A DNA stretch of 24,687 nucleotides, from the IMG/VR virus record IMGVR_UViG_3300008050_008723, positions 1-24,687 of that record; one strand, written 5' to 3'. The position numbers and the translations under genes are program-made. The notes beneath the pieces are model-generated. The model saw only the letters and a program-made list of their open reading frames with translations, searched no databases and had not been told where the DNA came from. Position 1 is the stretch's first letter; the number at the start of each line of letters is the position of its first letter. This document shows, piece by piece, positions 110 to 24,687 of the stretch. The stretch comes from a virus.

Positions 110-886
110 ATGATAACAGCGCATCTACAAGGAGGATTAGGAAACCAGATGTTTCAAATATCAGCCGCTACCGCTTTGGCTATTAAAAATAGTGATAAAG
201 TGGTCTTGGATGTGAATAGGTACCACTTACCATTGCAGGGCAGACGTTGTAAAAATTATGCAGATAATATTTTTAGAAATGTTAAATTTACAAATATAGA
301 AAATATAGAAAATATTTATAATGAATCATCCTTAAATTATTCTAAAATTCCTTATAAAAAAAATATGCAAATAAGAGGATATTTTCAGAGTGAAAAGTAT
401 TTCGTTGATCACGAAAAAGAAATAAGAAGTTTGTTTTCCCCCTCTTTGGAGATCGAAGAATATATTAATTCAAAATATGGAAAATATATATTAAAAGACA
501 ATATTACTTCGATTCACATTCGAAGGGGAGATTATCTAAAATTTAGTGATACTCACCCTCCGTGTTCTAAAGAATATTACGCTGCGTGTTTTTCCGAGTT
601 GCCTTCCAAAACTTTATATCTCGTTTTTAGTGACGATCCAGAATGGTGTAAAAATAATTTTAAAGCCTCCCAATTTCATATTGTTTCTGGCGAAGAAGAT
701 TATATAGATCTTTATTTGATGTCAAAATGTCATAATAACATTATTGCAAATAGTAGCTTTAGTTGGTGGGGCGCATGGCTTAATAACAACGCCGCGAAGA
801 AGGTCTTTGCCCCAAAAAGATGGTTTGGACCCGCATGCCTACGTGACGCGTCCGATATTATACCAGAAGAATGGGGGCGCAGATGA
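110..886 (+). CDS. Alpha-1,2-fucosyltransferase, glycosyltransferase family 11
   Basis: 258 aa. GT11 enzymes move L-fucose from GDP-fucose onto a hexose of an acceptor glycan, classically in alpha-1,2 linkage, in the cytoplasm. All family landmarks are visible: the N-terminal GGLGNQMFQ loop (residues 8-16), the nucleotide-sugar motif HIRRGDY (136-142), FSDD (173-176) and the C-terminal SSFSWWGAWL block (215-224). The length is slightly short of the usual 280-300 aa but the fold looks complete, with no signal peptide or membrane segment. The ATG directly abuts the upstream stop, with a GAAAGGAAAA purine stretch as ribosome binding site. The stop overlaps the next start as ATGA. The donor GDP-fucose can be made by Gmd and fucose synthase encoded downstream. 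The family call is secure; the exact linkage is inferred from the family. Confidence 0.93.
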   Translation: MITAHLQGGLGNQMFQISAATALAIKNSDKVVLDVNRYHLPLQGRRCKNYADNIFRNVKFTNIENIENIYNESSLNYSKIPYKKNMQIRGYFQSEKYFVDHEKEIRSLFSPSLEIEEYINSKYGKYILKDNITSIHIRRGDYLKFSDTHPPCSKEYYAACFSELPSKTLYLVFSDDPEWCKNNFKASQFHIVSGEEDYIDLYLMSKCHNNIIANSSFSWWGAWLNNNAAKKVFAPKRWFGPACLRDASDIIPEEWGRR

Positions 887-1512
887 TATCTCATAAGTAT
901 CGATTTATGTGTCCGAGAATAGGAAAAAACGCATCCTCTACGTTGGTTGAATATTTTAGAAAGTTTGATAATAATTTGATAGATGAGGGCCACGAATCAG
1001 TCTTAGGTCGCGGTTTTGAATCATTCGTGAACGGTCGATATATGGCGGGAAGAGATCACAATAAGTATTATAAATTTGCATTTGCAAGAAATCCTTATGA
1101 TCGTTTAGTTTCAGCATATTACGAGTTCAAAAAACCAGAACAATTTCACGACATCAAGAGTTTGGTGAAAAAAGATGAAGAAATCTCTTTGGATGATATT
1201 TTGGAAGGTTTTTCTAGTTTTGTCGCGATGACCAAAAAATATCCACACATTCACTGGAAAAGTCAGAGAGATATGATTCACGACTCACAGGGAAACATCC
1301 TTGTCCACTACATTGGAAAGGTTGAGAATATAAAGTTAGACCTTTTCAATATTTGTAATGTCGTGGGCATAAAAAATAAAGACTATTTCATACCAAATGC
1401 GAGGAAATCATTGGACAAGAAGCATTATGTCGAATATTATGATGACAAGCTGCACAAAGAAGTCGAAAGGATATACAAAAATGACTTAGATTTTTTTGGG
1501 TATACATTTTAA
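883..1512 (+). CDS. Carbohydrate sulfotransferase, Sulfotransfer_2-like
   Basis: 209 aa from ATG 883. Sulfotransferases move sulfate from PAPS to a hydroxyl or amine of the acceptor. The 5'-phosphosulfate loop is CPRIGKNASSTL (10-21) and the 3'-phosphate loop is FARNPYDRLVSAYYEF (67-82); both sit where the short bacterial and phage members of the family have them. A WKSQRDM block (125-131) and the C-terminal YY...DLDFFGY tail match the other Sulfotransfer_2-like gene at 6348. I chose 883 over an in-frame ATG at 871 because 883 gives the ATGA overlap seen throughout this island and starts close to the first beta strand, as in the paralogues. The acceptor is unknown; with fucosyltransferases on both sides, a fucosylated glycan is the natural guess. 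No membrane anchor is seen, so a cytoplasmic site is likely. Confidence 0.85.
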   Translation: MISHKYRFMCPRIGKNASSTLVEYFRKFDNNLIDEGHESVLGRGFESFVNGRYMAGRDHNKYYKFAFARNPYDRLVSAYYEFKKPEQFHDIKSLVKKDEEISLDDILEGFSSFVAMTKKYPHIHWKSQRDMIHDSQGNILVHYIGKVENIKLDLFNICNVVGIKNKDYFIPNARKSLDKKHYVEYYDDKLHKEVERIYKNDLDFFGYTF

Positions 1513-1520
1513 AGAGAGGA
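1513..1520 (+). promoter_or_regulatory. Shine-Dalgarno that decides a GTG start
   Basis: The purine stretch AGAGAGGA ends three bases before GTG 1524, in the 11-base gap after the preceding sulfotransferase stop. It supports GTG as the initiation codon of the GT10-like gene. Confidence 0.6.
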
Positions 1521-1523
1521 AGC

Positions 1524-2351
1524 GTGAAAATTTGCTTTGAGTGCCAATGGGGCCAGTCTCCTGCAGAACTTTTAAATAAATATAGAAAACAAACGCCGAA
1601 TAATTCAGCAAACTGGAAAGACTTAAGGGGCGTCAGTAATCCGTCTGACGCAGATTTCATCGTAGCCTTGGGAAACAGGCCGTTCAATCACAGGGCAAAT
1701 TCACATAAAGTAATTCAGGTTCGTCGAGAGCCAAATTTTATAGAAGGTTTTTTTCCTACCACCAATGCCCACCATATTATTGATTATGATGAGGGCGGCT
1801 ATCATGTCGCGACGTGGTTTGTAGAAAAAGATTTTAATGAATTGTCGACGATGCCATATTTCCCAAAAAGAAAAAAAATAAGTGCGATATCTTCTTCTAA
1901 GTGGCAACATAGGAATATTTTTTTAAAAAGAGTTTGTGATTTAACAAAAGAAGGAACGGTCGATTTTTACGGTCGAGGCCTCGGAAACATATTAAGAAGC
2001 CCCGACTATAAAGGCGTCCTCAACCAGAATAAAAATTGTAAATTCCATGGATTACACGACTATTCTTATTCTATAGCGATAGAAAATTCATCACAAAAAT
2101 ATTATTTTACAGAAAAAATTATAGATTGTTTTTTAACTTGGACGATGCCAATTTACTGGGGTTGTCCTAATATTTCAGAATTCTTTCCAGAAAATTCTTA
2201 TTATGTCATTGATTTAGCACGACCGGAAGATATAAAAGAAATTATAAAAAAGCCCATAGAAAAAAAACACATTGATGCTTTGAAAGAGGCACGAAATTTG
2301 GTATTGTACAAATATAATATTTGGCCAACGATAGAAAGGATTATAGCATGA
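1524..2351 (+). CDS. Fucosyltransferase-like glycosyltransferase, family GT10
   Basis: 275 aa, GTG start. The C-terminal half carries the alpha-1,3/4-fucosyltransferase signature: Y180 to N216 with the segments YSIAIENSS, YYFTEKIIDCFL and TMPIYWGCPNISEFF, which binds the GDP-sugar. An REP tripeptide (68-70) and VDFYGRG (146-152) match other conserved GT10 positions. GT10 enzymes add L-fucose from GDP-fucose to GlcNAc or Glc, usually in alpha-1,3 linkage, though some bacterial relatives use other acceptors or donors. There is no transmembrane stem, unlike the eukaryotic members. The start is set by the strong AGAGAGGA at 1513-1520; no ATG is available nearby in frame. The gene ends in an ATGA overlap with the methyltransferase-like gene. 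The fold family is confident, the sugar specificity less so. Confidence 0.85.
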   Translation: MKICFECQWGQSPAELLNKYRKQTPNNSANWKDLRGVSNPSDADFIVALGNRPFNHRANSHKVIQVRREPNFIEGFFPTTNAHHIIDYDEGGYHVATWFVEKDFNELSTMPYFPKRKKISAISSSKWQHRNIFLKRVCDLTKEGTVDFYGRGLGNILRSPDYKGVLNQNKNCKFHGLHDYSYSIAIENSSQKYYFTEKIIDCFLTWTMPIYWGCPNISEFFPENSYYVIDLARPEDIKEIIKKPIEKKHIDALKEARNLVLYKYNIWPTIERIIA

Positions 2352-2908
2352 AAAAACAAACAGATTTATTTAAAAAATATTCAAAACCCGTATTCGTAGA
2401 AACTGGCTCCTTTACAGGTGATGGTATCCACTGCGCACTTTCCGCCGGTATCAAAAAAATATATTCTATTGAAATAGCACCACATCTTTATAACCACTGC
2501 AAAGATAGATTTAAACATCTTAAAAAAGTATCTTTAGTTTGCGGAGATTCTTCTTCGGAATTGAGCGCACTTTTGTCTTCTATAAACGAGGAATGTTTAT
2601 TCTGGCTTGATGGCCATTGGTCTAAGGGAATCACGGGCCACGGACAAGAAGAAAGCCCTTTGTTAAAAGAATTGGATCAAATTTCCCAACATCATATAAA
2701 AACTCATACTATATTAATAGACGATTTGAGATGCTGGGATCGATCAAAAATTGATTTAGTAACAAATAAAAATAAAAATTTTGATGTCGATGAATTAAAG
2801 CAGAAAATTCTATCAATGAACAAAAAATATAAATTTACCTATGATTCAATAAGAGATCGATTTCCAAATGATGTTTTGGTGGCATATATTGAGGATGGCG
2901 AAGAATAA
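2348..2908 (+). CDS. Small class I SAM-dependent methyltransferase-like protein
   Basis: 186 aa from ATG 2348, which overlaps the previous stop as ATGA. The N-terminal VETGSFTGDGIHCAL (residues 17-31) looks like the glycine-rich SAM-binding loop of a Rossmann-fold methyltransferase. It is followed by an acidic end to strand 2 (YSIEI, E42), FWLDGHWS (85-92) and LIDDLRCW (123-130), a pattern shared with FkbM- and Methyltransf_24-type proteins that modify sugars. It is somewhat shorter than typical members (about 200-250 aa). The likely job is O-methylation of a sugar in the glycan built by its neighbours, but the acceptor cannot be read from sequence. A TTG 27 bases upstream in frame was not used because the ATGA coupling and the SAM motif position favour 2348. 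A non-methylating Rossmann protein remains possible. Confidence 0.7.
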   Translation: MKKQTDLFKKYSKPVFVETGSFTGDGIHCALSAGIKKIYSIEIAPHLYNHCKDRFKHLKKVSLVCGDSSSELSALLSSINEECLFWLDGHWSKGITGHGQEESPLLKELDQISQHHIKTHTILIDDLRCWDRSKIDLVTNKNKNFDVDELKQKILSMNKKYKFTYDSIRDRFPNDVLVAYIEDGEE

Positions 2909-2909
2909 G

Positions 2910-3632
2910 ATGATAGCAATTTTATCTTTTCCAAGGTCTGGAAATCATTTTGTTAGATATATTGTTGAGTTTGTAACAGGTCGCTCAACTATCGGACACA
3001 ATGTCGCCCTGAGTGACCCGGCAGATTCTCCAATATGCCGACGCAAAGGGATAAAATTTTTGAAGCATGTTGATTTCCATAACCCTGTTGCAAGAAAATA
3101 CCATTTTGCTGATGCCAAAAAGCTAGCTAAATATGGGGACATTGTAAAATCTACAAAACTTGTTTTGATTATGAGGCATCCTTTGGAAAGTTTTCTATCA
3201 CATAGAGTGGACAAATTCCGCGTGTATATGAATTCTAATCGTTCATTTGCTGAAAATGTTAAAAAACTTGTTTCAGTCGATAAAAAAGCACTCCTGTACA
3301 ATTTAAATTTTTATAATAATTTTCAGGGTCCAAAAATTTGTATTTGGTACGAGGATTTGATATCCGATAAACCTGAAAAATCTATTGAAAAAATATCTTC
3401 TTTTTGTGGTGGTTCTCAAGAACGTTTATTGGAAATATCGAATAATTTTGAAAAATATAAATTAGACAGCTTAAAGAGTCCTCCTCGTCAACCGGCTTCA
3501 ATCAATCGGCCTAACCCAGAGAAGTTTTATTCAAATAAAATAAAAACTCAGAATTTGGACAATTATCAATATCTTGAAGAGAAATTTTGTGAATTATTAG
3601 AACATCCCTTACTGGGAGAAAAATATAAATGA
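2910..3632 (+). CDS. Sulfotransferase, Sulfotransfer_1-like
   Basis: 240 aa. PAPS-dependent sulfotransferase of a type different from the genes at 883 and 6348. The 5'-phosphosulfate loop SFPRSGNHFVR (6-16) is the classic FPRSGN form, the 3'-phosphate segment is VLIMRHPLESFLSH (85-98), and IWYEDL (145-150) corresponds to the conserved YEDL strand that follows in Sulfotransfer_1 proteins. The C-terminal region PPRQPASINRP (191-201) is where this family usually has the RKG.. nucleotide-binding loop; that loop is not obvious here. ATG 2910 lies one base after the preceding stop and places the PAPS loop at residue 6. An in-frame ATG at 2895 would add five residues and cannot be excluded. The acceptor is unknown. 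Confidence 0.85.
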   Translation: MIAILSFPRSGNHFVRYIVEFVTGRSTIGHNVALSDPADSPICRRKGIKFLKHVDFHNPVARKYHFADAKKLAKYGDIVKSTKLVLIMRHPLESFLSHRVDKFRVYMNSNRSFAENVKKLVSVDKKALLYNLNFYNNFQGPKICIWYEDLISDKPEKSIEKISSFCGGSQERLLEISNNFEKYKLDSLKSPPRQPASINRPNPEKFYSNKIKTQNLDNYQYLEEKFCELLEHPLLGEKYK

Positions 3633-4306
3633 ATTATTTTGTTTTTTCTTATGGGGGGACTGGCAGCACTATGTTATGCAGCTTTCTGTCTCGATATGGA
3701 AGAGGCTTTCATCTTCATAATAAAGTACCTCCTTTGTTCTTAACGGATAGACTTGTAAAAGCCCCCGATGGAACCAAGGCGCTGATCCACCTCTCACAAG
3801 ATCCCTATTATAAATTAAATCTCAATGATTGTCGAGTGATTTATATATATCGTGATCCCGTAATAGCAAAGATTTCACGCCCAGGTTGGCAACATTGTTA
3901 TCATATTGGAGGAGACTTTAGACAGCATCAAAAACTTAAAAGCAAGCCGGGGGATAATTTAGGAATGGGACTACTAGAGGATTATGCGCGCCACGGAGTT
4001 GATCTAAATCAATATGAAGAGCATTTTGATAACTGGATGATCAAGGGGAAGGACCGAGAGTATTCGATATTATATATAAATTATGCACATTTATGGGAAA
4101 ACTTAAATGTTATTTTCGAGTATTGTCAAATTCCTATAAATCATATTGTAAATTTTCCTAGAAAAAGAGAAACAAAGAAAAATGTATCTGATAATGTTAT
4201 GAAAATCTTAACTGAGATGTACCACCCGCTGCAGAAAAAAATTGAAACTCTAGAGCCGATTATATTATCTAAAAATAATTTGACTAAACAAGAAGAAAAG
4301 TATTAG
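3629..4306 (+). CDS. Divergent sulfotransferase-like P-loop protein
   Basis: 225 aa, starting in an ATGA overlap with the previous gene. The N-terminus has FSYGGTGSTMLCSFL (6-20), a PAPS-type loop, and YIYRDPVIAKIS (72-83) fits the 3'-phosphate loop (R-D-P in place of R-N-P). The middle and C-terminal parts, for example FPRKRETKKN (176-185), do not recall a family I know, so this is a divergent member. Related sulfotransferase-like proteins with YGGTGST loops occur in marine phages and bacteria. Its place between another sulfotransferase and the GSCFA gene supports a part in glycan sulfation. It could also be a P-loop kinase-like enzyme, but the RDP motif argues for a sulfotransferase. Confidence 0.7.
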   Translation: MNYFVFSYGGTGSTMLCSFLSRYGRGFHLHNKVPPLFLTDRLVKAPDGTKALIHLSQDPYYKLNLNDCRVIYIYRDPVIAKISRPGWQHCYHIGGDFRQHQKLKSKPGDNLGMGLLEDYARHGVDLNQYEEHFDNWMIKGKDREYSILYINYAHLWENLNVIFEYCQIPINHIVNFPRKRETKKNVSDNVMKILTEMYHPLQKKIETLEPIILSKNNLTKQEEKY

Positions 4307-4318
4307 GAGTCTAACAAA

Positions 4319-4348
4319 ATGATAGAAAATTTTAAAGGAACTCAATAG
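4319..4348 (+). CDS. Possible 9-codon mini-ORF in the gap before the GSCFA gene
   Basis: ATG 4319 to TAG 4346-4348 encodes MIENFKGTQ, preceded by AGGAG at 4305-4309 with nine bases of spacing. It may be a translated leader or the vestige of a lost gene; nothing in the peptide suggests a function. Its stop overlaps the next Shine-Dalgarno. Translation is unproven. Confidence 0.2.
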   Translation: MIENFKGTQ

Positions 4349-4353
4349 GAGGA
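4347..4353 (+). promoter_or_regulatory. Strong Shine-Dalgarno AGGAGGA
   Basis: This near-perfect anti-16S match lies ten bases before ATG 4364, the start of an 8-codon mini-ORF, and 33 bases before the GSCFA start. It is too far from ATG 4387 to serve that gene directly, which suggests coupling through the mini-ORF or sequence reorganised after a deletion. Confidence 0.5.
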
Positions 4354-4363
4354 AATAACAATC

Positions 4364-4390
4364 ATGAAAAAAAGGAAAAAACAATTATGA
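4364..4390 (+). CDS. Possible 8-codon mini-ORF coupled to the GSCFA gene
   Basis: ATG 4364 to TGA 4388-4390 encodes MKKRKKQL and overlaps the GSCFA start as ATGA. It has the strong AGGAGGA ribosome site. The first nine bases, ATGAAAAAA, recur exactly at the GSCFA start 23 bases later, so it may be a duplicated start region. It could act as a coupling leader; an alternative is that its AAAGGAAAA is simply the Shine-Dalgarno for ATG 4387. Confidence 0.25.
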   Translation: MKKRKKQL

Positions 4391-5346
4391 AAAAAGTAGA
4401 TTTAAAGGAGAAGAAATTTTTTACAGGAGCAAAGGGAGCCATCGCTGCTAAAGTCGAAGGGCCGAATTGGTTTCATACTCCCCCCAATCAGACATTTCCC
4501 GAATCGTTTGAAGATTTAAACTTATATAAGGAAGGGTCGCTTGAAAAGTTTATTAAAAAACACTTATTATTGGGTTATTCCCCACAAGAAAAATTGTTTT
4601 CTAATGAATCAAAAATATTTACGATGGGCTCTTGTTTTGCTGCCAACATTGCTAAAGAACTTGAATCTCGGCACCATGGAACTAAAGGGTTTAGTAAAGT
4701 ACTTCATACACCATCTAGCGTTAATAACACATTTGCTTTGGAGCAATTTTTTCGTTGGGTAATAACCGGCGACGTGTCTGATCGTTCATATTGGCACGAG
4801 GGAAAAGCTAAGGGGTGGGAACCTGATGGAACCAGAGAGGCTTATTTAGACTGGATCTCGCAAGCTGATGGATTTATTTTTACATTGGGACTATCCGAGA
4901 TCTGGAAAGATAAAAAGACAAACAAAGTTTTCTGGCGCGCCGTGCCCCACCAACAATATGATAAAGACGTTGACAGGTACTCGTTTGAGCTTTCAACGGT
5001 TGAACAAAACGTGGAGAACATTAGAAATTTAATTCGTTTAATCCATCACAATCTAGGAGATAAACCAATAATTTTAACATTATCTCCAGTTCCTCTTCGT
5101 GCAACCTTCAGAAATATGTCATGTATTTCCGCTAACTGTGTATCAAAATCAATTCTGAGAGTTGCACTAAATGAAGTGATGGCTTCAGAGTATGATCATG
5201 TATATTATTGGCCTTCATATGAAGTGATAAAAGAAATTAGCACTCATAAGAATCAGTCAGGGTTTGAATCGAAAATCCCGCGCCACCCAAAACAACAAAT
5301 TGTTAAGGGTATTATTTCTACTTTTTTGAGCGTTTATTTTAAATGA
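4387..5346 (+). CDS. GSCFA-domain (SGNH-like) protein
   Basis: 319 aa. The namesake motif GSCFA is at residues 81-85 inside FTMGSCFAANIAKEL. Further family landmarks are FTLGLSEIW (about 165-173), LTLSPVPL and a C-terminal PRHPKQQ, which would supply the histidine of an SGNH-type catalytic site, with Ser82 as nucleophile. GSCFA proteins are related to SGNH hydrolases and often sit in polysaccharide gene clusters, where acyl transfer to or removal from sugars is suspected but, to my knowledge, not settled. No signal peptide or membrane segment is visible, so a cytoplasmic role is likely. The N-terminal 70 residues resemble the usual lead-in of bacterial GSCFA proteins. The gene ends in an ATGA overlap with a sulfotransferase remnant. 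Family secure, activity inferred. Confidence 0.88.
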   Translation: MKKVDLKEKKFFTGAKGAIAAKVEGPNWFHTPPNQTFPESFEDLNLYKEGSLEKFIKKHLLLGYSPQEKLFSNESKIFTMGSCFAANIAKELESRHHGTKGFSKVLHTPSSVNNTFALEQFFRWVITGDVSDRSYWHEGKAKGWEPDGTREAYLDWISQADGFIFTLGLSEIWKDKKTNKVFWRAVPHQQYDKDVDRYSFELSTVEQNVENIRNLIRLIHHNLGDKPIILTLSPVPLRATFRNMSCISANCVSKSILRVALNEVMASEYDHVYYWPSYEVIKEISTHKNQSGFESKIPRHPKQQIVKGIISTFLSVYFK

Positions 5347-5423
5347 TAATTTCTCACAGTAAAGAATTTATTTTTCTGAAGGCACCAAAAACGGCAGGAT
5401 CAAGCATTTTGCAGGCGCTATGA
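5343..5423 (+). pseudogene. 26-codon N-terminal remnant of a Sulfotransfer_2-type gene
   Basis: ATG 5343 to TGA 5421-5423 encodes 26 residues that match the start of a sulfotransferase: first beta strand EFIFLKAP and the PAPS loop PKTAGSSI, then an abrupt stop. The rest of the enzyme is absent in every frame, since GDP-fucose synthase starts at 5420. Both ends are ATGA overlaps, so the remnant can still pass ribosomes from the GSCFA gene to the fucose synthase gene. It has no 3'-phosphate loop or acceptor site and cannot be an active enzyme. A clean deletion or recombination joint is the best explanation. A retained role as a coupling peptide is possible. Confidence 0.75.
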
Positions 5424-6346
5424 AAATATTAATAACAGGCGGTACCGGAATGGTGGGCACCGCGTTTAAAAATATAAAAACCGAACATGAGTTAATTTTA
5501 GTTGGTTCGCGAGAGTATGATCTAGAATCGTGGTATGATACTTTATGTATGGTCGAGAGAATAAGGCCAGATGCCATAATACACCTAGCAGCGAAAGTGG
5601 GGGGTATTAAGGCTAATATGGAAAATCAAGGAGATTTTTATACGATTAACGCTAATATCAATACAAATGTGCTGAAAGCCGCTAAAAATATGAAAGTAGG
5701 AAAAGTTATTTCTCTCCTGAGCACTTGTATCTATCCGGATAAAGTAAATTATCCCTTGACCGAAGATCAAATCCACGCAGGACCACCCCATAACTCAAAC
5801 TATGCATATGCCTACGCGAAGAGAATGCTTGATATACAATCTAGAGCCTATAGAGACCAATATGGGTGTAATTTTATAACAGCCGTTCCAAATAACCTTT
5901 TTGGAGAAAATGATAATTTCGATCTTGAAAACTCCCATGTGATCCCGGCCCTGATAAGGAAGATGCACGAAGCGTCCATGGCTGGTACTGATGTCACCTT
6001 ATGGGGAGATGGGTCTCCTTTACGAGAATTTACATATTCACAAGATTTGGCTGAAATTTTGTTATTCTTGTTAGAACACTACAATGAAGAGGGGCCAATA
6101 AATATTGGCAATACGAATGAAATTTCTATAAAAGAAGTAGCCGAAATGATTGCTGAGATTTTAAAATTTGAAGGCGAAATTATTTGGGATATTACCAAAC
6201 CAAAGGGACAATTGCGCAAACCATCCGACAATGCGAGACTCTTAGAATTGGGGTGGAGAGAAGAGAATTACACAAATTTTAGAAAAGCCTTGACAAATGT
6301 ATGTCAACATGTTATATTAAAGTATCCGTATTTGAGGGGAGTATAA
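5420..6346 (+). CDS. fcl: GDP-L-fucose synthase (epimerase/reductase)
   Basis: 308 aa. Extended short-chain dehydrogenase that converts GDP-4-keto-6-deoxymannose to GDP-L-fucose with NADPH, the second step after Gmd. The Rossmann loop is GGTGMVG (7-13). The catalytic residues of E. coli GDP-fucose synthase (S107, C109, Y136, K140, H179, from memory) all align at a constant offset of six: S101 and C103 in LSTCIYPD, Y130 and K134 in YAYAK, H173 in NSHVIP. The block PDKVNYPLTEDQIHAGPP (106-123) and NSNYAYAYAKRM follow the animal TSTA3/GFUS pattern more closely than WcaG. The start overlaps the sulfotransferase remnant as ATGA. Together with Gmd (7005) it supplies the donor for the two fucosyltransferases. 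No defect is seen. Confidence 0.94.
   Translation: MKILITGGTGMVGTAFKNIKTEHELILVGSREYDLESWYDTLCMVERIRPDAIIHLAAKVGGIKANMENQGDFYTINANINTNVLKAAKNMKVGKVISLLSTCIYPDKVNYPLTEDQIHAGPPHNSNYAYAYAKRMLDIQSRAYRDQYGCNFITAVPNNLFGENDNFDLENSHVIPALIRKMHEASMAGTDVTLWGDGSPLREFTYSQDLAEILLFLLEHYNEEGPINIGNTNEISIKEVAEMIAEILKFEGEIIWDITKPKGQLRKPSDNARLLELGWREENYTNFRKALTNVCQHVILKYPYLRGV
6334..6341 (+). promoter_or_regulatory. Shine-Dalgarno pointing at an ATA start
   Basis: GAGGGGAG, inside the last codons of the fucose synthase gene, lies six bases before ATA 6348. No ATG, GTG or TTG in the sulfotransferase frame occurs between the in-frame stop TGA 6333-6335 and the conserved N-terminus, so this site is the main support for ATA initiation. 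Confidence 0.55.
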
Positions 6347-6347
6347 A

Positions 6348-6992
6348 ATATTAAATATCAATAAAAAATTTGTATTTGTCCACTGTCAAAAAGCAGCTGG
6401 CACCAGCATCTCTAACTCCCTCTGCACAGAGGAAGATTATGAAGAATCCTTTCGTAATCTTGGTCCGCCATGGGACGGAACAGCCGCCGAGAATGGCGGT
6501 TGTACACAAAATTGGTTACATTGGCAGCATGCCTCCGCCAATCAATACAAAGATGCCCTCGGTCAAGATGAGTGGAACAATCTTTTCACATTTTCTATTG
6601 TGCGAAACCCGTGGGATAGATATATATCGTGGATCAAATTTGAGGATAATGAGGCTCGAAAAAACAACGTCTATGTGCCTCAAGATATAGATTACCAAAG
6701 GCTTTTTCGAAGAATTTTACAAACGAGAAACCCAGGCCAAGGAGCCTACCGCGATATGTTATTCGACACAGATGGAAAACTTCTTGTTGATTTTGTGGGA
6801 AAATTTGAGAATCTGCAACACGATTTTGATGTAATTTGTGATCGAATTAACCATGCGCGCTTCCAAATTCCTCATAAAAATAAGACAATTCATCGACCTT
6901 ATTGGGAATATTATGATCAACAATCCATTGATTTAGTCCACAGGATGCATCATCGAGATATAGAATATTTTGGATATAAATTTGGAAATTAA
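6348..6992 (+). CDS. Carbohydrate sulfotransferase, Sulfotransfer_2-like, apparent ATA start
   Basis: 214 residues from ATA 6348. The 5'-phosphosulfate loop is HCQKAAGTSI (12-21), the 3'-phosphate loop FSIVRNPWDRYISW (82-95), then YRDMLFDTDGKLLVDFVG and a C-terminal YYD...DIEYFGYKF tail that parallels the gene at 883. The frame is open from 6336, but the first ATG/GTG/TTG is GTG 6600, beyond the first PAPS loop and inside the second; starting there would destroy the enzyme. ATA 6348 lies six bases after GAGGGGAG and puts the first strand (KKFVFVH) at residues 6-12, as in the other family members here. Either a true non-canonical start, a silenced gene (ATG to ATA) or a sequencing error. Intact motifs suggest recent or current function. 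Confidence 0.8.
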   Translation: MLNINKKFVFVHCQKAAGTSISNSLCTEEDYEESFRNLGPPWDGTAAENGGCTQNWLHWQHASANQYKDALGQDEWNNLFTFSIVRNPWDRYISWIKFEDNEARKNNVYVPQDIDYQRLFRRILQTRNPGQGAYRDMLFDTDGKLLVDFVGKFENLQHDFDVICDRINHARFQIPHKNKTIHRPYWEYYDQQSIDLVHRMHHRDIEYFGYKFGN

Positions 6993-7004
6993 AAGGAATA
7001 TATT

Positions 7005-7997
7005 GTGAAAACAGCACTAATAACGGGAATAACCGGACAAGATGGGTCTTATTTAGCCGACCTACTTCTCGGGAAGGGATATCATGTCGTAGGCATTAAG
7101 AGACGCAACTCGCTTATATCCACGGACCGGATTGATCACCTCTTCAATGACTCAGAAAAAATTATGAACTTCACTCTCGCTTATGGAAATATGATAGATT
7201 CTGGGAATTTACATAGAATCCTCCAGACCTATCAGCCTGATGAGATTTATAATTTGGCGGCCCAATCTCATGTTCGCGTATCATTTGACACCCCAGAAGA
7301 AACAGCCGAAATCGGTGCAATGGGTACCCTGAGATTGCTAGAAGCCGTAAGAAATGTATGTCCCAACGCTCGGTTTTATCAAGCATCCTCGTCGGAGATG
7401 TATGGAGATAATCCAGAGTTCCCCCAAAATGAGAAGACGTGCTTACAACCTGCCTCCCCATACGCATGTGCAAAGGTTTTTGCTCATCATTTGGTTAGAA
7501 ATTACCGAGAGAGCTATGGAATCCATGCATCATCGGGTATTTTATTTAATCACGAATCACCGCGCCGGGGCGAAACATTTGTCACCCGGAAGATAACAAT
7601 GGCCGCTGCAAAAATTAAGGTCGGCTTGCAAGACAAACTATATTTGGGAAATCTAGAAGCAAAACGAGACTGGGGTTACGCAAAAGATTATGTTGAAGCG
7701 ATGTGGTTAATGCTGCAGCAAGAGCAGCCCGATGATTATGTAATAGCCACCGGGAAGGCATATAGCGTCCAACAATTTTTAGAGCTAGTTTTCCAGCATG
7801 CGGGCCTTAATATCGCCGATCATGTAGAAATAGATGAAAGATTATTCCGCCCTCATGAAGTTCCTCTTTTGTTAGGAGACGCGACAAAGGCCAAACAAAA
7901 ACTCAATTGGTCGCCCGCAACGTCTATGGAAGAGTTGGCGCTTCTGATGTATCAAGCAGATTTAGAGGCTCTCCACAATAGTGGAGAAAATAAATGA
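7005..7997 (+). CDS. gmd: GDP-mannose 4,6-dehydratase
   Basis: 330 aa, GTG start behind AAAAGGA. It converts GDP-D-mannose to GDP-4-keto-6-deoxy-D-mannose in the cytoplasm, the first step to GDP-L-fucose. Landmarks: [10 protein letters not shown] (8-17, NADP binding), RRNS (33-36), [15 protein letters not shown] (83-97), the catalytic set S129 and E131 in SSSEMYG with Y153 and K157 in [20 protein letters not shown] (182-196) and [10 protein letters not shown] (221-230). Most bacterial enzymes have Thr where S129 sits, a conservative change. At 330 aa it is shorter than E. coli Gmd (373 aa) but normal for compact members. Its product is the substrate of the fucose synthase at 5420; the two are separated by a sulfotransferase. 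It ends in an ATGA overlap with the epimerase gene. Confidence 0.95.
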
Positions 7998-8830
7998 GAG
8001 CGTTAGTAACTGGCCATCGAGGATATATTGGAAGCAAAGTATATGATCGCTTAATTAAAGATGGTCTGGATGTAGAGGGCATCGATTTAAAGGAGGGATC
8101 CGACATTTTAGAGTGCCTCCACCAGCGTCGATATGATTTTATTTTTCATTTGGCGGCCCTCCCTCGTGTAGAATATTCTGTAAATAATCCTTATTATACC
8201 TTGAAACAAAATGTTTTAGCCACATCTAAATTATTGGAATTTGCAGTCAAAAATGCATGCCAAAGAGTTATTTTTTCATCTTCTTCGGCCATCTATGGAA
8301 ATGGATCAGGTCCAACCTCTCCCTATGGATTACATAAATTGATGTCTGAAATGGAATGTAAATTATATTCCGAACTTTACGGCCTAGATACGGTATGTTT
8401 AAGATATTTTAACGCATATTCGGAAGATCAAGAGTTTGGAGGAGCTTACTCTACGGTCATCTCGGCCTGGTTAGAAATGATAAGGCAACGTCGACCGCTC
8501 CGCATCGATGGAGATGGGGAGCAAACCAGGGATTTTGTGCATGTGAAGGATATAGTGGATGCTAATATCTTTTGTATGAAAACCCAAAATAAATTAAATG
8601 GCTCATGTTTTGACGTGGGGACTGGACAATCTATTTCGATTAATCAAATAAAAGAAATAGTAGAAAATAATATAAAAAATGTAGAATGGCACTGTGCACA
8701 AGCCCGACCCGGTGATGCGCGCCACACATTAGCCGACACGGAACCTCTCAAGAAATTGGGGTGGGAAAGTAAAATAGATATTTACGATGGTATAATATCT
8801 TGTTTCAAAAACACACAACAAAGGAAATAA
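7994..8830 (+). CDS. NAD-dependent sugar epimerase/dehydratase (extended SDR, GalE-like)
   Basis: 278 aa. Extended SDR fold with NAD loop GHRGYIGS (7-14), [16 protein letters not shown] (51-66), the catalytic SSS (95-97) and Y111-x-x-x-K115 in YGLHK, then LRYFNAY (137-143) and [13 protein letters not shown] (179-191), all typical of nucleotide-sugar 4-epimerases. [12 protein letters not shown] (238-249) is the usual C-terminal substrate-binding strand of UDP-GlcNAc/UDP-glucose epimerase-like members. It is shorter than GalE (about 338 aa), with compressed loops near the N-terminus. The substrate cannot be set from sequence; an epimerase supplying a second sugar for the glycan is the likely role. 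It is the last gene of the glycan island, one base before the next gene. Confidence 0.88.
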
Positions 8831-10353: not shown

Positions 10354-10649
10354 AAGATTTAGACAAATATTTAGAAAAAGCCATCCAGAATATCGAAAAC
10401 GACCGCGATGTTACGCGTCGTCTCCTTGATGATGTAATAGTTTATTTAAGTGGCGATGAAGAGCGCCACATGACGGTGGGGCTCACCGCTGCGAAGTACG
10501 TTGAAACGCTCCAAAGATCTAATGAGCAGCTTGTTAAAATTTCATCCATAATTCAGCGAAAACAGAAAAATGCTGTTGGATTATCTAAAGATGATAAGGA
10601 AGATATTTTTGACATGATTAAAAATAAGGATACCTTAATAGATGGCTGA
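10350..10649 (+). CDS. Small helical phage protein, function unknown
   Basis: 99 aa, almost all helix: an N-terminal LDKYLEKAIQNIENDRDVTR, then AAKYVETLQRSNEQLVKISS (46-65) and a charged C-terminus. The size, the YVETLQRSNEQL pattern and the place between the late sigma factor and structural genes would suit a small terminase-like or regulatory protein, but I cannot place it in a family. It starts with ATGA and overlaps the next gene by 8 bases (ATGGCTGA). Confidence 0.65.
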   Translation: MKDLDKYLEKAIQNIENDRDVTRRLLDDVIVYLSGDEERHMTVGLTAAKYVETLQRSNEQLVKISSIIQRKQKNAVGLSKDDKEDIFDMIKNKDTLIDG

Positions 10650-12246
10650 AGACTTGGACCCATTTAATTTTCTTTTGCCCTACGGTAATCAAATTGCTGG
10701 AGGACTTGTAAAACCGACGGATCAATTTGACAAATTTGACGCGTCCAATCTAAACAACGGTATTTTCCAGATTCGCGAAGGAATTGCAGAGGTCTTCCGC
10801 GCGCAGCGAACAAATAAAAATGGGCCATGGTACGCCGTTGTTCTTCATGTGGAAACTTATATCGACCCGGGATGGTCCGAAAACCCCGGACCTCTCCAAT
10901 ATTATCCTGTAGGGGGGAGCATGCAAGAATCTAAGCCTCGCGAATTCCTCCAGGTGTGGGCTAGACGTTATCCCGATGATCAGGGGGTAATGCAGCCGGA
11001 TTGGTCTTTTATTGATGTGGCTTATGTAAATCCAAACCGAATAATGCGGCCGAACACTCCTGCGAAGAGAATGGCTTTGATAAAAGCCCACGATTACTAT
11101 ATAGTCCCCCTCGATATGTGGGGCCCCCGTCGCGACCCCATGCCAGGAGATTTGGTTTGGGTTACCTTCGATGACATCCCCAATCAATCACGAGGGCGCC
11201 TTTTAGATTTTACTGATCCTGGATCTAACCCCCCTACAGTTTCGAATTGGGCGGGCAATATGTCGATGGGAGCCCAGGGACAATTTGCGGATCCTTCACA
11301 ACCTCTTAGTGATTTATTTGAAGAAGATCGAGGGCCCACCATTAGACCACCTCGCGATGACGAGCTTGAGGAAGCTAGACAAATATTAGCCCAAATGGCC
11401 CCGGGCCCGGATGTCGCAGTCCCCAATGATTTAATTTTCGCCCAAGCAGGACCCCCCAGAGAGAGGGTTCAGACAGTCATCTGGGAATCATATGGCTATT
11501 CCTCTCCTTTGGTATATACCGAAGCCGCGCCTTATTTGATCGCGATGTATTTAGCAGCCCGAAGAGAGGGAGTTAACTTAGTTCTAACTAGTGGATGGCG
11601 AGAGCCGGCCCAGGATATTACGGGCGCGCTGTTAAACCAATTTTTATTTGGCCCCAACGGCGAAGACCTCGCTGAAAAATATGTTAAATGGGACGGAACT
11701 CCCCTCAGCGATGAATTCATGAATAAAACGAAAAGAGATGAGCGCATGTTTAATAAATCCCAATTGACCCTGCGGCTGGACAACTGCACCCCCGATGGCC
11801 AGGAATTGACGAGCAATTGTGTGTGCACCCCCCTGACTGGGATGCCCAAGACCACAACGGATTATGCTTACGGGCACCTGACGGGATATGCTTTTGATAC
11901 CAGTTCGGGGATGGCCGGCACCGGCGACCAGCCTCAACCCGGTCGAATCTCCCCAATGTATCGATGGCTCTGCCTAAATGCGTGGAAATATGGATTTCTC
12001 CGCACCGTCGGAGGAGACAAATCCGAGCGGTGGCATTGGGAGTTACGATTAAACCAAACCCCACGTCCACGCGTCTTTGATAAAATCCCCCGCAATCATG
12101 GATCCTGGGACGGTCAATTTAACGGGACTCAAGATTATTTTGAAGATACTTACGAAGCGGGTCTGGTTGAAGCCGCAAAACAAAAAGCTCGTGATGATGT
12201 GATGAACGAATGGCATCGAAGCGACCAAACCGGACCAATGCCATAA
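10642..12246 (+). CDS. Baseplate hub-like protein with C-terminal M15 peptidase
   Basis: 534 aa. The N-terminal 200 residues end in PMPGDLVWVTFDD (167-179) and SRGRLLDF, a strand pattern found in OB-fold domains of phage hub and spike proteins. A proline-rich linker follows (about 205-275). Residues 280-475 form an M15 (VanY/VanX-like) D,D-peptidase: SGWREP (317-322), zinc ligands H412 and D419 in YGHLTGYAFD, and E462-x-W-H465 in SERWHWE. The His-Asp spacing of seven and the Glu-His spacing of three equal those of VanX. The protein probably opens cell-wall peptides locally at infection, a job done in T4 by the lysozyme domain of gp5. There is no signal peptide, as expected for a virion protein. 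The catalytic call is strong; the hub role rests on gene order and the OB-like part. Confidence 0.83.
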   Translation: MAEDLDPFNFLLPYGNQIAGGLVKPTDQFDKFDASNLNNGIFQIREGIAEVFRAQRTNKNGPWYAVVLHVETYIDPGWSENPGPLQYYPVGGSMQESKPREFLQVWARRYPDDQGVMQPDWSFIDVAYVNPNRIMRPNTPAKRMALIKAHDYYIVPLDMWGPRRDPMPGDLVWVTFDDIPNQSRGRLLDFTDPGSNPPTVSNWAGNMSMGAQGQFADPSQPLSDLFEEDRGPTIRPPRDDELEEARQILAQMAPGPDVAVPNDLIFAQAGPPRERVQTVIWESYGYSSPLVYTEAAPYLIAMYLAARREGVNLVLTSGWREPAQDITGALLNQFLFGPNGEDLAEKYVKWDGTPLSDEFMNKTKRDERMFNKSQLTLRLDNCTPDGQELTSNCVCTPLTGMPKTTTDYAYGHLTGYAFDTSSGMAGTGDQPQPGRISPMYRWLCLNAWKYGFLRTVGGDKSERWHWELRLNQTPRPRVFDKIPRNHGSWDGQFNGTQDYFEDTYEAGLVEAAKQKARDDVMNEWHRSDQTGPMP

Positions 12247-21703: not shown

Positions 21704-23500
21704 ATGGCCACGAAAAAAGTACCTATTAATTATACCAGTCGAGACTTTGCTTCGATCAAAGAGGAGCTAGTCAATTACGCAAAGCGATACTACCCAGAAA
21801 CTTATCAAGACTTTAAAGAAGTTTCTTTTGGTTCGTTGATGCTTGATACGGTTGCGTATGTGGGGGATATTTTATCTTTTTATCTCGACTATCAAGCCAA
21901 CGAATCTTTTCTTGACTCTGCAGCGGAATACAAAAACGTGCTTCGTTTATCGAAGCAATTAGGTTATACTTATAGCGGCAATCCCTCGTCGACCGGCATA
22001 GTAGATTTTTATATCATTGTGCCGGCCAATAATCCAGGCCTCGGCCCTAATACCTCCTATCTCCCGATCTTAAAGAAGGGAAGTTCCTTTTCTTCTACTT
22101 CGGGAGTAACATTTTTATTAACTGAAAACGTAGATTTTTCTAATCCTAATAATGAGGTTACAGTAGGAAATGTAAATGCAGGAACGGGCGTTCCAATCAG
22201 TTACGCCGTCAAGGCATCTGGGCAAGTGGTATCGGGAAAAATAGTTACGGAAGTATTCCCAATTGGAAACTATGAGAAATTTCGAAAAGTACACCTGACT
22301 GCCCCATTGGTGGCGGAGGTTCTCTCGGTCTTCGATGGCGATGGCAATGAATATTATCAGGTGGATTATCTTTCACAAAACGTCATTTATAAGGAGGTTA
22401 CCTCCAGAACAGAAGAATCGGATTTAGTCCCCATGGTTATGCGTCCCTATTCGGTACCTCGACGATTTTGTTTAAAAACTAACGGAGCTTCCTCTTATAT
22501 GCAATTTGGCTTTGGTTCGGATGCGGAAAACTCCGAAGCTTCGCCCGTCGACCCGTCCAATATCGTTCTCCAACTGCATGCGAGAAATTATATTTCTGAT
22601 CCGTCTTTCGATCCCTCTCAATTATTGCGCAGCGATAAGTTGGGAGTAGTTCCCCAAAGTACGACCCTAAGTGTAGATTATCGCGTCAACCTAAATGGAA
22701 ATGTAAACGCTGCCGCCGGTACTGTCATTAGGGTAGCGTCCTCAACCTTTTCGTTTAATAATCCCTCTACTTTGGATGCCAACACAGTGGCTGGAGTACG
22801 GAACTCTTTAGAATTATTCAATGTGAATCCCATTTTGGGGGATGTAGCAAACCCTTCGGCGGAAGAACTTAGGATCCGCACTCGGGATTTTTTCACTACC
22901 CAAAACCGGGCTGTCACTAAAAAAGATTATGAAGCTCTTATTTATGCGATGCCATCGAGATTCGGCGCTGTAAAAAGATGCAACATCGTACAGGATCCCG
23001 ATTCCTTTAAGCGAAATCTAAATTTATATATCTTGGCCGAAAATATGGACGGGAACCTAGCCGAAGCACCCATGAGCTTAAAAGAAAATCTAAAAATGTG
23101 GCTAGGAAATTATAAGATGATTAATGATACTATTGATGTTCTCGATGGACGCATTATTAATGTGGGAATTAATTTTGAGGTTTTCTGTGATCCAGACGTT
23201 AATAAATATGATGTGCTGAATGCCTGTCAAGCCGCTTTAGTTAATAAATTTTATGATCCCCTTCTCTTGGGGGAGCCGCTCTATATAACGGATATTTATA
23301 CGTTGCTTAATGCGACCCGAGGTGTTGTCGACACTAAAAAAGTAGAGATTATTCTAAAAAAAGGAACCAATTACGCATCCACGAGCCTCAAAAATCTGAA
23401 TGAATTAAAATCGGCCGACGGCAGGTATGTACAGGCTCCAATTAATGCGGTTTTCGAAATAAAATATCCGCCTTTGGATATTAAGGGGGCAATTAGGTAA
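21704..23500 (+). CDS. 6: Baseplate wedge protein, T4 gp6-like (baseplate J family)
   Basis: 598 aa. gp6 joins neighbouring baseplate wedges into the inner ring of the contractile tail. The N-terminus INYTSRDFASIKEELVNYAK, then FGSLMLDTVAYVGDILSFYLDYQANESFL (held between residues 42 and 72), is the family hallmark. The central part contains LRIRTRDFFTTQNRAVTKKDYEAL-type baseplate-J sequence (about 387-410) followed by VKRCNIV and LYILAEN. T4 gp6 is 660 aa, so the length is in range. GAGGA at 21690-21694 is nine bases before the ATG. The stop overlaps the next start as TAATG. No sign of damage. Confidence 0.94.
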   Translation: MATKKVPINYTSRDFASIKEELVNYAKRYYPETYQDFKEVSFGSLMLDTVAYVGDILSFYLDYQANESFLDSAAEYKNVLRLSKQLGYTYSGNPSSTGIVDFYIIVPANNPGLGPNTSYLPILKKGSSFSSTSGVTFLLTENVDFSNPNNEVTVGNVNAGTGVPISYAVKASGQVVSGKIVTEVFPIGNYEKFRKVHLTAPLVAEVLSVFDGDGNEYYQVDYLSQNVIYKEVTSRTEESDLVPMVMRPYSVPRRFCLKTNGASSYMQFGFGSDAENSEASPVDPSNIVLQLHARNYISDPSFDPSQLLRSDKLGVVPQSTTLSVDYRVNLNGNVNAAAGTVIRVASSTFSFNNPSTLDANTVAGVRNSLELFNVNPILGDVANPSAEELRIRTRDFFTTQNRAVTKKDYEALIYAMPSRFGAVKRCNIVQDPDSFKRNLNLYILAENMDGNLAEAPMSLKENLKMWLGNYKMINDTIDVLDGRIINVGINFEVFCDPDVNKYDVLNACQAALVNKFYDPLLLGEPLYITDIYTLLNATRGVVDTKKVEIILKKGTNYASTSLKNLNELKSADGRYVQAPINAVFEIKYPPLDIKGAIR

Positions 23501-24687
23501 TGGCTGTTAAAAAATATTTTGCCAATGCTGATACGACTATTACCAATGCATTTCGGTCGAATTTAACACAACGTGGCACCAATGCAAATATGGGTGAGTC
23601 TGACATTTTAGAGACATTTTCGATTTATGGTCAAGCATCTTCGGGCTCTACCGAACTAGAACGACTTTTAATTAAATTTCCTGTTGGGGAAATAATCTCC
23701 GACCGAGCCGCAAGCCAACTGCCTGCCAGTGGATCGGTTAATTTTTATTTAAAAATGACCAATGCTCCACATAATGAGACGGTTCCTCGCCATATGACAT
23801 TGGATATCTATGCGGTATCGCGGTCATGGCAAGAAGGTATTGGCTTGGATATGGAGGAATATCTAGACGTGGTCTATCCGGGAAATATCGGCGCCACATG
23901 GATGTCGGCCTCTAGTACTGAAGCTTGGACGCGCATGGGGGGAGATTATCATACCGAGCCAACCTATTCGGCCTATTTCGATCGCGGATATGAAAATATG
24001 AAGGTGGATGTAACCCCCCTTGTTGAGGAATGGATCGCAGGGACAAAAGAAAATTATGGATTTGGTGTTCATTTAACGGCAAGTCAAGAAGCTTATTTCG
24101 CAGAATTTTACCCAAGAGAAGCTGTACAATTTGACGGCGCCGCGTTCCTTTCAGGAACATCAGATACCGATCTGGAAAACGATTCTACAATATCCGCCTG
24201 GATTAAGCAATCTAACAACACGGGCACGAGATATGTGCTTTTTTGGCAAAGAAGCGCGGCAACAAGTTTCAGGAGGGTTTTACAAATAAATCCGGGCGGC
24301 ACAGCAATCGTTTATAGAAAGATGTACGCCGGAGGGACCACCACAATAACAACTGATGATCCCCTTCCTCTAAATACCTGGACCCATATAACAGTGACGG
24401 ACACACAAAAATCTATAGATATTCCCTCAATTTATATAAACTCAATCTCCGCTTCCGCAACGGTCACACAGGGCGCAGGCTCTGCATTAACTGATGTCGA
24501 TATGTTTGCCATTGGAGGCTCAAGATCGGGAGTTTCCTTTAATTTTAGTGGATCCATAGACGACGTAGCATCTTTTGATAAAATTTTAAGTCCCGGAGAA
24601 ATAACTGAGCTTTATAACGGCGCATGTCCGGCCCCAATTAAAGAGCTTTCTATTTATGAAAATCTCTCAAATTGGTGGGTTCACGGC
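23500..24687 (+). CDS. Tail protein with N-terminal DNRLRE-like and LamG-like lectin domains (3' truncated)
   Basis: 396 codons up to the right edge, with no stop. The N-terminal 205 residues (ADTTITNAFRSNLTQRG, TLDIYAVSRSWQEG, VDVTPLVEEWIAG, NYGFGVHL) look like a DNRLRE/CBM96-type beta sandwich as seen in other phage virion proteins following gp6. From about residue 209 to 376 comes a LamG/concanavalin-A-like fold: VQFDGAAFLS, STISAWIK, NTWTHITVT, MFAIGG and SGSIDDVASFDKILSPGEI. The end ENLSNWWVHG resembles the NWWRMG lead-in of more LamG-linked sequence. LamG domains bind glycans, so host surface recognition is likely. It sits where T4-like phages carry wedge or fibre genes. The beta-sandwich calls come from motif pattern only. 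Confidence 0.8.
   Translation, partial: MAVKKYFANADTTITNAFRSNLTQRGTNANMGESDILETFSIYGQASSGSTELERLLIKFPVGEIISDRAASQLPASGSVNFYLKMTNAPHNETVPRHMTLDIYAVSRSWQEGIGLDMEEYLDVVYPGNIGATWMSASSTEAWTRMGGDYHTEPTYSAYFDRGYENMKVDVTPLVEEWIAGTKENYGFGVHLTASQEAYFAEFYPREAVQFDGAAFLSGTSDTDLENDSTISAWIKQSNNTGTRYVLFWQRSAATSFRRVLQINPGGTAIVYRKMYAGGTTTITTDDPLPLNTWTHITVTDTQKSIDIPSIYINSISASATVTQGAGSALTDVDMFAIGGSRSGVSFNFSGSIDDVASFDKILSPGEITELYNGACPAPIKELSIYENLSNWWVHG

Follow-up and report, generated by a model that had tools for sequence, protein, structure and literature searches.

Gene content of the locus

The window, i.e., the whole stretch of 24,687 nucleotides of the IMG/VR virus record IMGVR_UViG_3300008050_008723, stems from a T4-like phage, with PHROG matches to a late sigma factor and baseplate wedge proteins. 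The first 8.8 kb form a glycan cassette, in which positions 110-8830 combine phage-borne GDP-fucose synthesis (fcl, gmd), fucosyl transfer (fucosyltransferases GT11 and GT10), several sulfotransferases, including the ATA gene analyzed here, and a GSCFA protein. This cassette looks like the machinery for a sulfated fucosylated glycan. Elsewhere in the window, a borderline VanY-type peptidase domain ends a 534-residue protein (10642-12246), and a Laminin_G_3 lectin domain is found in the last, cut protein (23500-24687).

The genes and features from fcl to gmd (5420-7997) are on the plus strand. The upstream gene fcl (5420-6346) is GDP-L-fucose synthase-like (PF01370, E = 9e-53; NF047922, E = 7.7e-78), whereby its 262 bits against NF047922 (GDP-L-fucose synthase) are under the curated cut-off of 500. 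It is 79% identical to fcl of locus L003 and 76% identical to fcl of locus L004. The sulfotransferase gene follows (Sulfotransfer_2, 6348-6992) with 214 codons plus stop and an intact frame, matching PF03567 (E = 1.1e-14) and PHROG 3347 (E = 3.8e-26). The downstream gene gmd (7005-7997), a GDP-mannose 4,6-dehydratase, has a GTG start and matches TIGR01472 with 482 bits, above the cut-off.

The 3' end of fcl serves as a cargo slot with variable content (window 6344-7005; L003:4920-5592; L004:4920-4930). In L004 the slot is empty and gmd starts directly after fcl across GGGGAGTATAATG with nothing between, L003 holds another PF03567 gene, which has an ATG of its own, and other genes are found in L008 and L009. 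Since L004 is empty and L003 carries a different gene, the slot takes insertions at a place where a strong Shine-Dalgarno sequence (SD) is already present.

The sulfotransferase family (L043-L122; records G013 and G014) has conserved N- and C-terminal blocks of about 57-64% identity, between which lie two hypervariable cores of about 17-19% identity. Several paralogues occur per contig, up to seven, and pairs from the same contig are no closer than pairs from different contigs. The hypervariable cores and this paralogue pattern are suggestive of acceptor-site diversification. A neighboring paralogue in the window (883-1512) has a nearly identical counterpart in G001 (L036), the closest relative found, in which the ATA gene is absent. 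For the window paralogue, the listed start ATG 871 probably lies too far upstream, and ATG 883 fits the homologues.

The sulfotransferase frame and its missing start

The frame 6336-6992 is open from the in-frame TGA at 6333-6335 to the TAA at 6990-6992. The PF03567 match scores 55.7 bits (curated cut-off 22) and spans residues 9-215, i.e., nearly the full length. Both PAPS motifs are found, QKAAGTS (after the strand 8-11) and VRNPWDR...S, which confirms the initial annotation of a full-length sulfotransferase with an intact frame and both PAPS loops. Among 33 aligned sequences, R86, P88 and S94 are invariant and K15 is conserved in at least 90%. An AlphaFold2 model (pLDDT 86, pTM 0.84) shows a complete fold with the N-terminal strand E8-11 ahead of the 5'-PSB loop. 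In a Foldseek search against the PDB, nearly all of the top 50 matches were sulfotransferases or related PAP-binding enzymes, all distant (best E-value 1.2e-3, TM 0.3-0.5); a sequence search against PDB chains gave no match. Judged by motifs and modeled fold, the gene product is a predicted PAPS-dependent glycan sulfotransferase.

Length, fold, 5'-PSB and 3'-PSB motifs, the conserved C-terminus and the setting among sugar-nucleotide and glycosyltransferase genes are shared with the viral PF03567 cargo genes of PHROG 3347 ('Galactose-3-O-sulfotransferase'). The window gene differs from them in its ATA, and its identity to the nearest of them is about 30-40%. Scans of the viral and genome contigs at protein level, and the homologue collection, yielded no orthologue above about 40% identity.

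The codons following TGA 6333-6335 are GGG GAG TAT AAA ATA TTA AAT ATC AAT AAA AAA TTT. The first in-frame ATG, GTG or TTG is GTG 6600, which lies within the 3'-PSB motif VRNPWDR; hence, the annotated absence of such a codon between the in-frame stop and the conserved N-terminus was borne out. Translation from GTG 6600 would yield a sulfotransferase without the 5'-PSB loop. A codon scan found no ATG, GTG or TTG in any frame of 6333-6369. Thus, one indel is unable to supply a start, and rescue by a single indel was ruled out. An upstream fused start, named beforehand as an observation which would speak against a missing start, was ruled out by the in-frame TGA, and none of the homologues examined starts in an upstream fusion.

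The ATA at 6348-6350 is the most likely (former) start codon position. It had been described as the only candidate, which holds insofar as it is the right codon and aligns without gaps with most homologue start methionines; however, the near-cognate codons TTA 6351 and ATC 6357 are in frame as well, though they fit SD spacing and homologues less well. One feature by which natural AUA starts are recognized is present: no canonical start lies between the upstream stop and the conserved N-terminus, and the codon in the homologous start column is near-cognate.

Start codons of the homologues and the Shine-Dalgarno sequence within fcl

Homologues were taken from viral contigs. Every stop-to-stop frame was tested against the profile, and the codon nearest to the family start column was taken as the start. 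This rule was applied to 131 distinct viral family members, including the window gene. The start was ATG in 124 members and GTG in six; only the window gene has neither. The alignment column of ATA 6348 is the start in 77 homologues (77/131), with ATA aligned ungapped to the start methionine (MISHKHKFIFIH... compared to ILNINKKFVFVH...; typical homologue N-termini are MISHKHKFIFIHIPKTGGTS and MINHKHKFIFIHIPKTGGTS against ILNINKKFVFVHCQKAAGTS). For 28 further homologues the start lies one codon upstream, at AAA 6345-6347 in the window, which matches the start methionine of longer homologues (MIISHKHKY, MLISHSHKF). As ATA 6348 is one change away from ATG, whereas AAA 6345 is two changes away, 6348 is likelier to be the former start than 6345. 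The suggestion to look for ATG at this codon in related phages is thereby answered: all 130 other members have ATG or GTG.

Because the window was chosen for its missing start, the informative figure is not 1/131 but 0/130, i.e., no non-canonical start among the other members, with a 95% upper bound of 2.3%. Among 508 ORFs with alignable N-termini in the window and the fetched viral loci, a canonical start is missing in two, the sulfotransferase gene and an evident antisense shadow ORF. The missing canonical start is beyond chance. ATA is shared by none of the 130 relatives, and no second contig with it was found among the viral contigs. An exact DNA search of the viral contigs for population variants gave no hits, so that the base is not repeated in another contig.

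The final fcl codons AGG GGA GTA TAA contain the SD of the next gene. The SD-like GAGGGGAG (6334-6341) sits in the reading frame of fcl within its closing Leu-Arg-Gly-Val codons and forms an anti-SD duplex of -8.8 kcal/mol, the third strongest among 19 starts in the window. It is stronger than the SD at nearly all homologue starts, and its spacing is 4-6 bases. The gap of six bases between GAGGGGAG and ATA was given correctly in the initial annotation; the fcl stop TAA (6344-6346), placed there two bases upstream of ATA, is separated from it by a single base, A 6347. A host ignoring SD sequences is unsupported, as most genes of the window have a recognizable one.

The L004 junction GGGGAGTATAATG, where the sulfotransferase gene is absent, has the same SD motif (-8.7) ahead of a normal ATG. 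Since the strong SD is part of fcl and is equally strong in L004 before ATG, it is not an adaptation to ATA, and a compensatory strong SD was ruled out. Comparison of both junctions suggests that the SD was most likely there before the ATA. The SD renders weak initiation at ATA plausible, yet gives no evidence of ATA being selected.

Origin and possible use of the ATA codon

Most simply, ATA represents the loss of a start codon by a single letter, either real or due to an assembly error. The reading we put first, at about an even chance, is an intact glycan-sulfotransferase cargo gene whose ancestral ATG was recently converted to ATA by one substitution, and which is translated weakly at most if the base is real. 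An ATG-started cargo gene would have been inserted between fcl and gmd, and a G-to-A substitution at position 6350 would have changed ATG to ATA recently enough to leave the rest of the gene undecayed. No stop is present within the frame, though 101 of 1917 possible substitutions would create one, and the coding composition is like that of the neighbors (GC3 0.34 compared to 0.27-0.47). The intact frame is also compatible with selection acting on the gene at the expression it has now. We infer that the ATA change arose most likely by accident and not through selection.

Provided that the base is real, ribosomes that terminate on the fcl stop TAA 6344-6346 would be positioned over GAGGGGAG, from where they could start again with fMet at ATA 6348 and produce a little full-length enzyme. 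An SD added in E. coli raises re-initiation more than threefold and softens the inhibition by excess IF3 (PMC2268962). As in that reporter, and as in stop-start coupled genes such as M13 gV-gVII (PMC2268962), the SD lies inside the upstream gene and the start one base past its stop; the window gene differs by its non-canonical start codon, and its coupling is putative. A further paper on re-initiation at non-canonical codons (PMC4648390) deals with eukaryotic expression and was left aside. Discrimination of IF3 against AUA is a sound premise, yet ATA does not mean zero protein: S. aureus infC, ccpN and citZ have AUA starts, which reach about 10-30% of the AUG level where measured, and extended SDs precede infC, ccpN and the AUU start of cvfC1 (PMC13009471). 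By analogy, a low but non-zero output from ATA is expected if the base is real, and any protein made from it is probably scarce. The window gene shares with these cases an AUA at the start of an intact gene and, with infC, ccpN and cvfC1, a strong extended SD. It differs in that ribosome arrest or a reporter assay demonstrated the S. aureus starts, with ccpN and cvfC1 also being conserved in their relatives, whereas the window ATA is known from the sequence of one contig, is unconserved and has an SD belonging to the upstream gene.

Re-sequencing had been named as a check before, yet a consensus error in sequencing or assembly had been left unweighed. We consider such an error, with the real virus having ATG at 6348 and hence an ordinary coupled cargo gene, a serious rival, possible though falling short of probable. 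In an otherwise intact metagenome contig, a feature universal to the family is broken by a single base, SD and spacing match a normal start, and the base does not recur in any other of the viral contigs searched. However, covered short-read assemblies rarely contain substitution errors in their consensus, no further defect was seen in the window and, apart from the antisense shadow ORF, no other start was lost among the alignable ORFs of the window and the fetched loci.

Between the two readings offered initially, a recent silencing mutation fits better than a deliberate low-expression start; the latter is unsupported, given an SD inherited from the fcl end, an unshared ATA and canonical family starts. 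It is unlikely that selection keeps ATA for a low, IF3-sensitive, fcl-coupled expression level, as proposed for infC, ccpN or pcnB. The intact frame and the strong extended SD with 4-6 bases spacing, as for S. aureus AUA and AUU starts, are consistent with such a function, but this SD belongs to fcl and is equally strong before the ordinary ATG of L004, and the family uses ATG or GTG throughout. More specifically, selection might keep the cargo sulfotransferase under an AUA start dependent on fcl termination, with a low enzyme level tied to the fucose supply, which we hold to be distinctly improbable. Least of all do we expect another way of entry, i.e., ribosomes reaching the frame from fcl by readthrough, frameshift or bypass, or starting at TTA 6351 or ATC 6357. 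Near-cognate codons are present, and with an SD just ahead of the fcl stop the layout bears a superficial resemblance to prfB, but a +1 slip at GTA TAA needs the Val tRNA to re-pair with UAU, which is a misfit, and in L004 this junction is used for a normal start. A prfB-like programmed frameshift was ruled out, since re-pairing is impossible for the GTA slip codon and the start of the next gene in L004 accounts for the SD. TTA and ATC lie one and three codons downstream of the homologue start column, ATC being 14 nt from the SD duplex.

AUA starts behind strong SDs have precedents in S. aureus, and the effect of the present case on understanding is small until the reads are inspected. If the base is real and translated, the sulfotransferase would represent a phage cargo gene with an AUA start, and would show that gene finding based on start codons misses or truncates such genes, the one here being cut to 130 residues from GTG 6600. 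Otherwise, the locus represents a clean case of start loss or consensus error within an otherwise intact gene.
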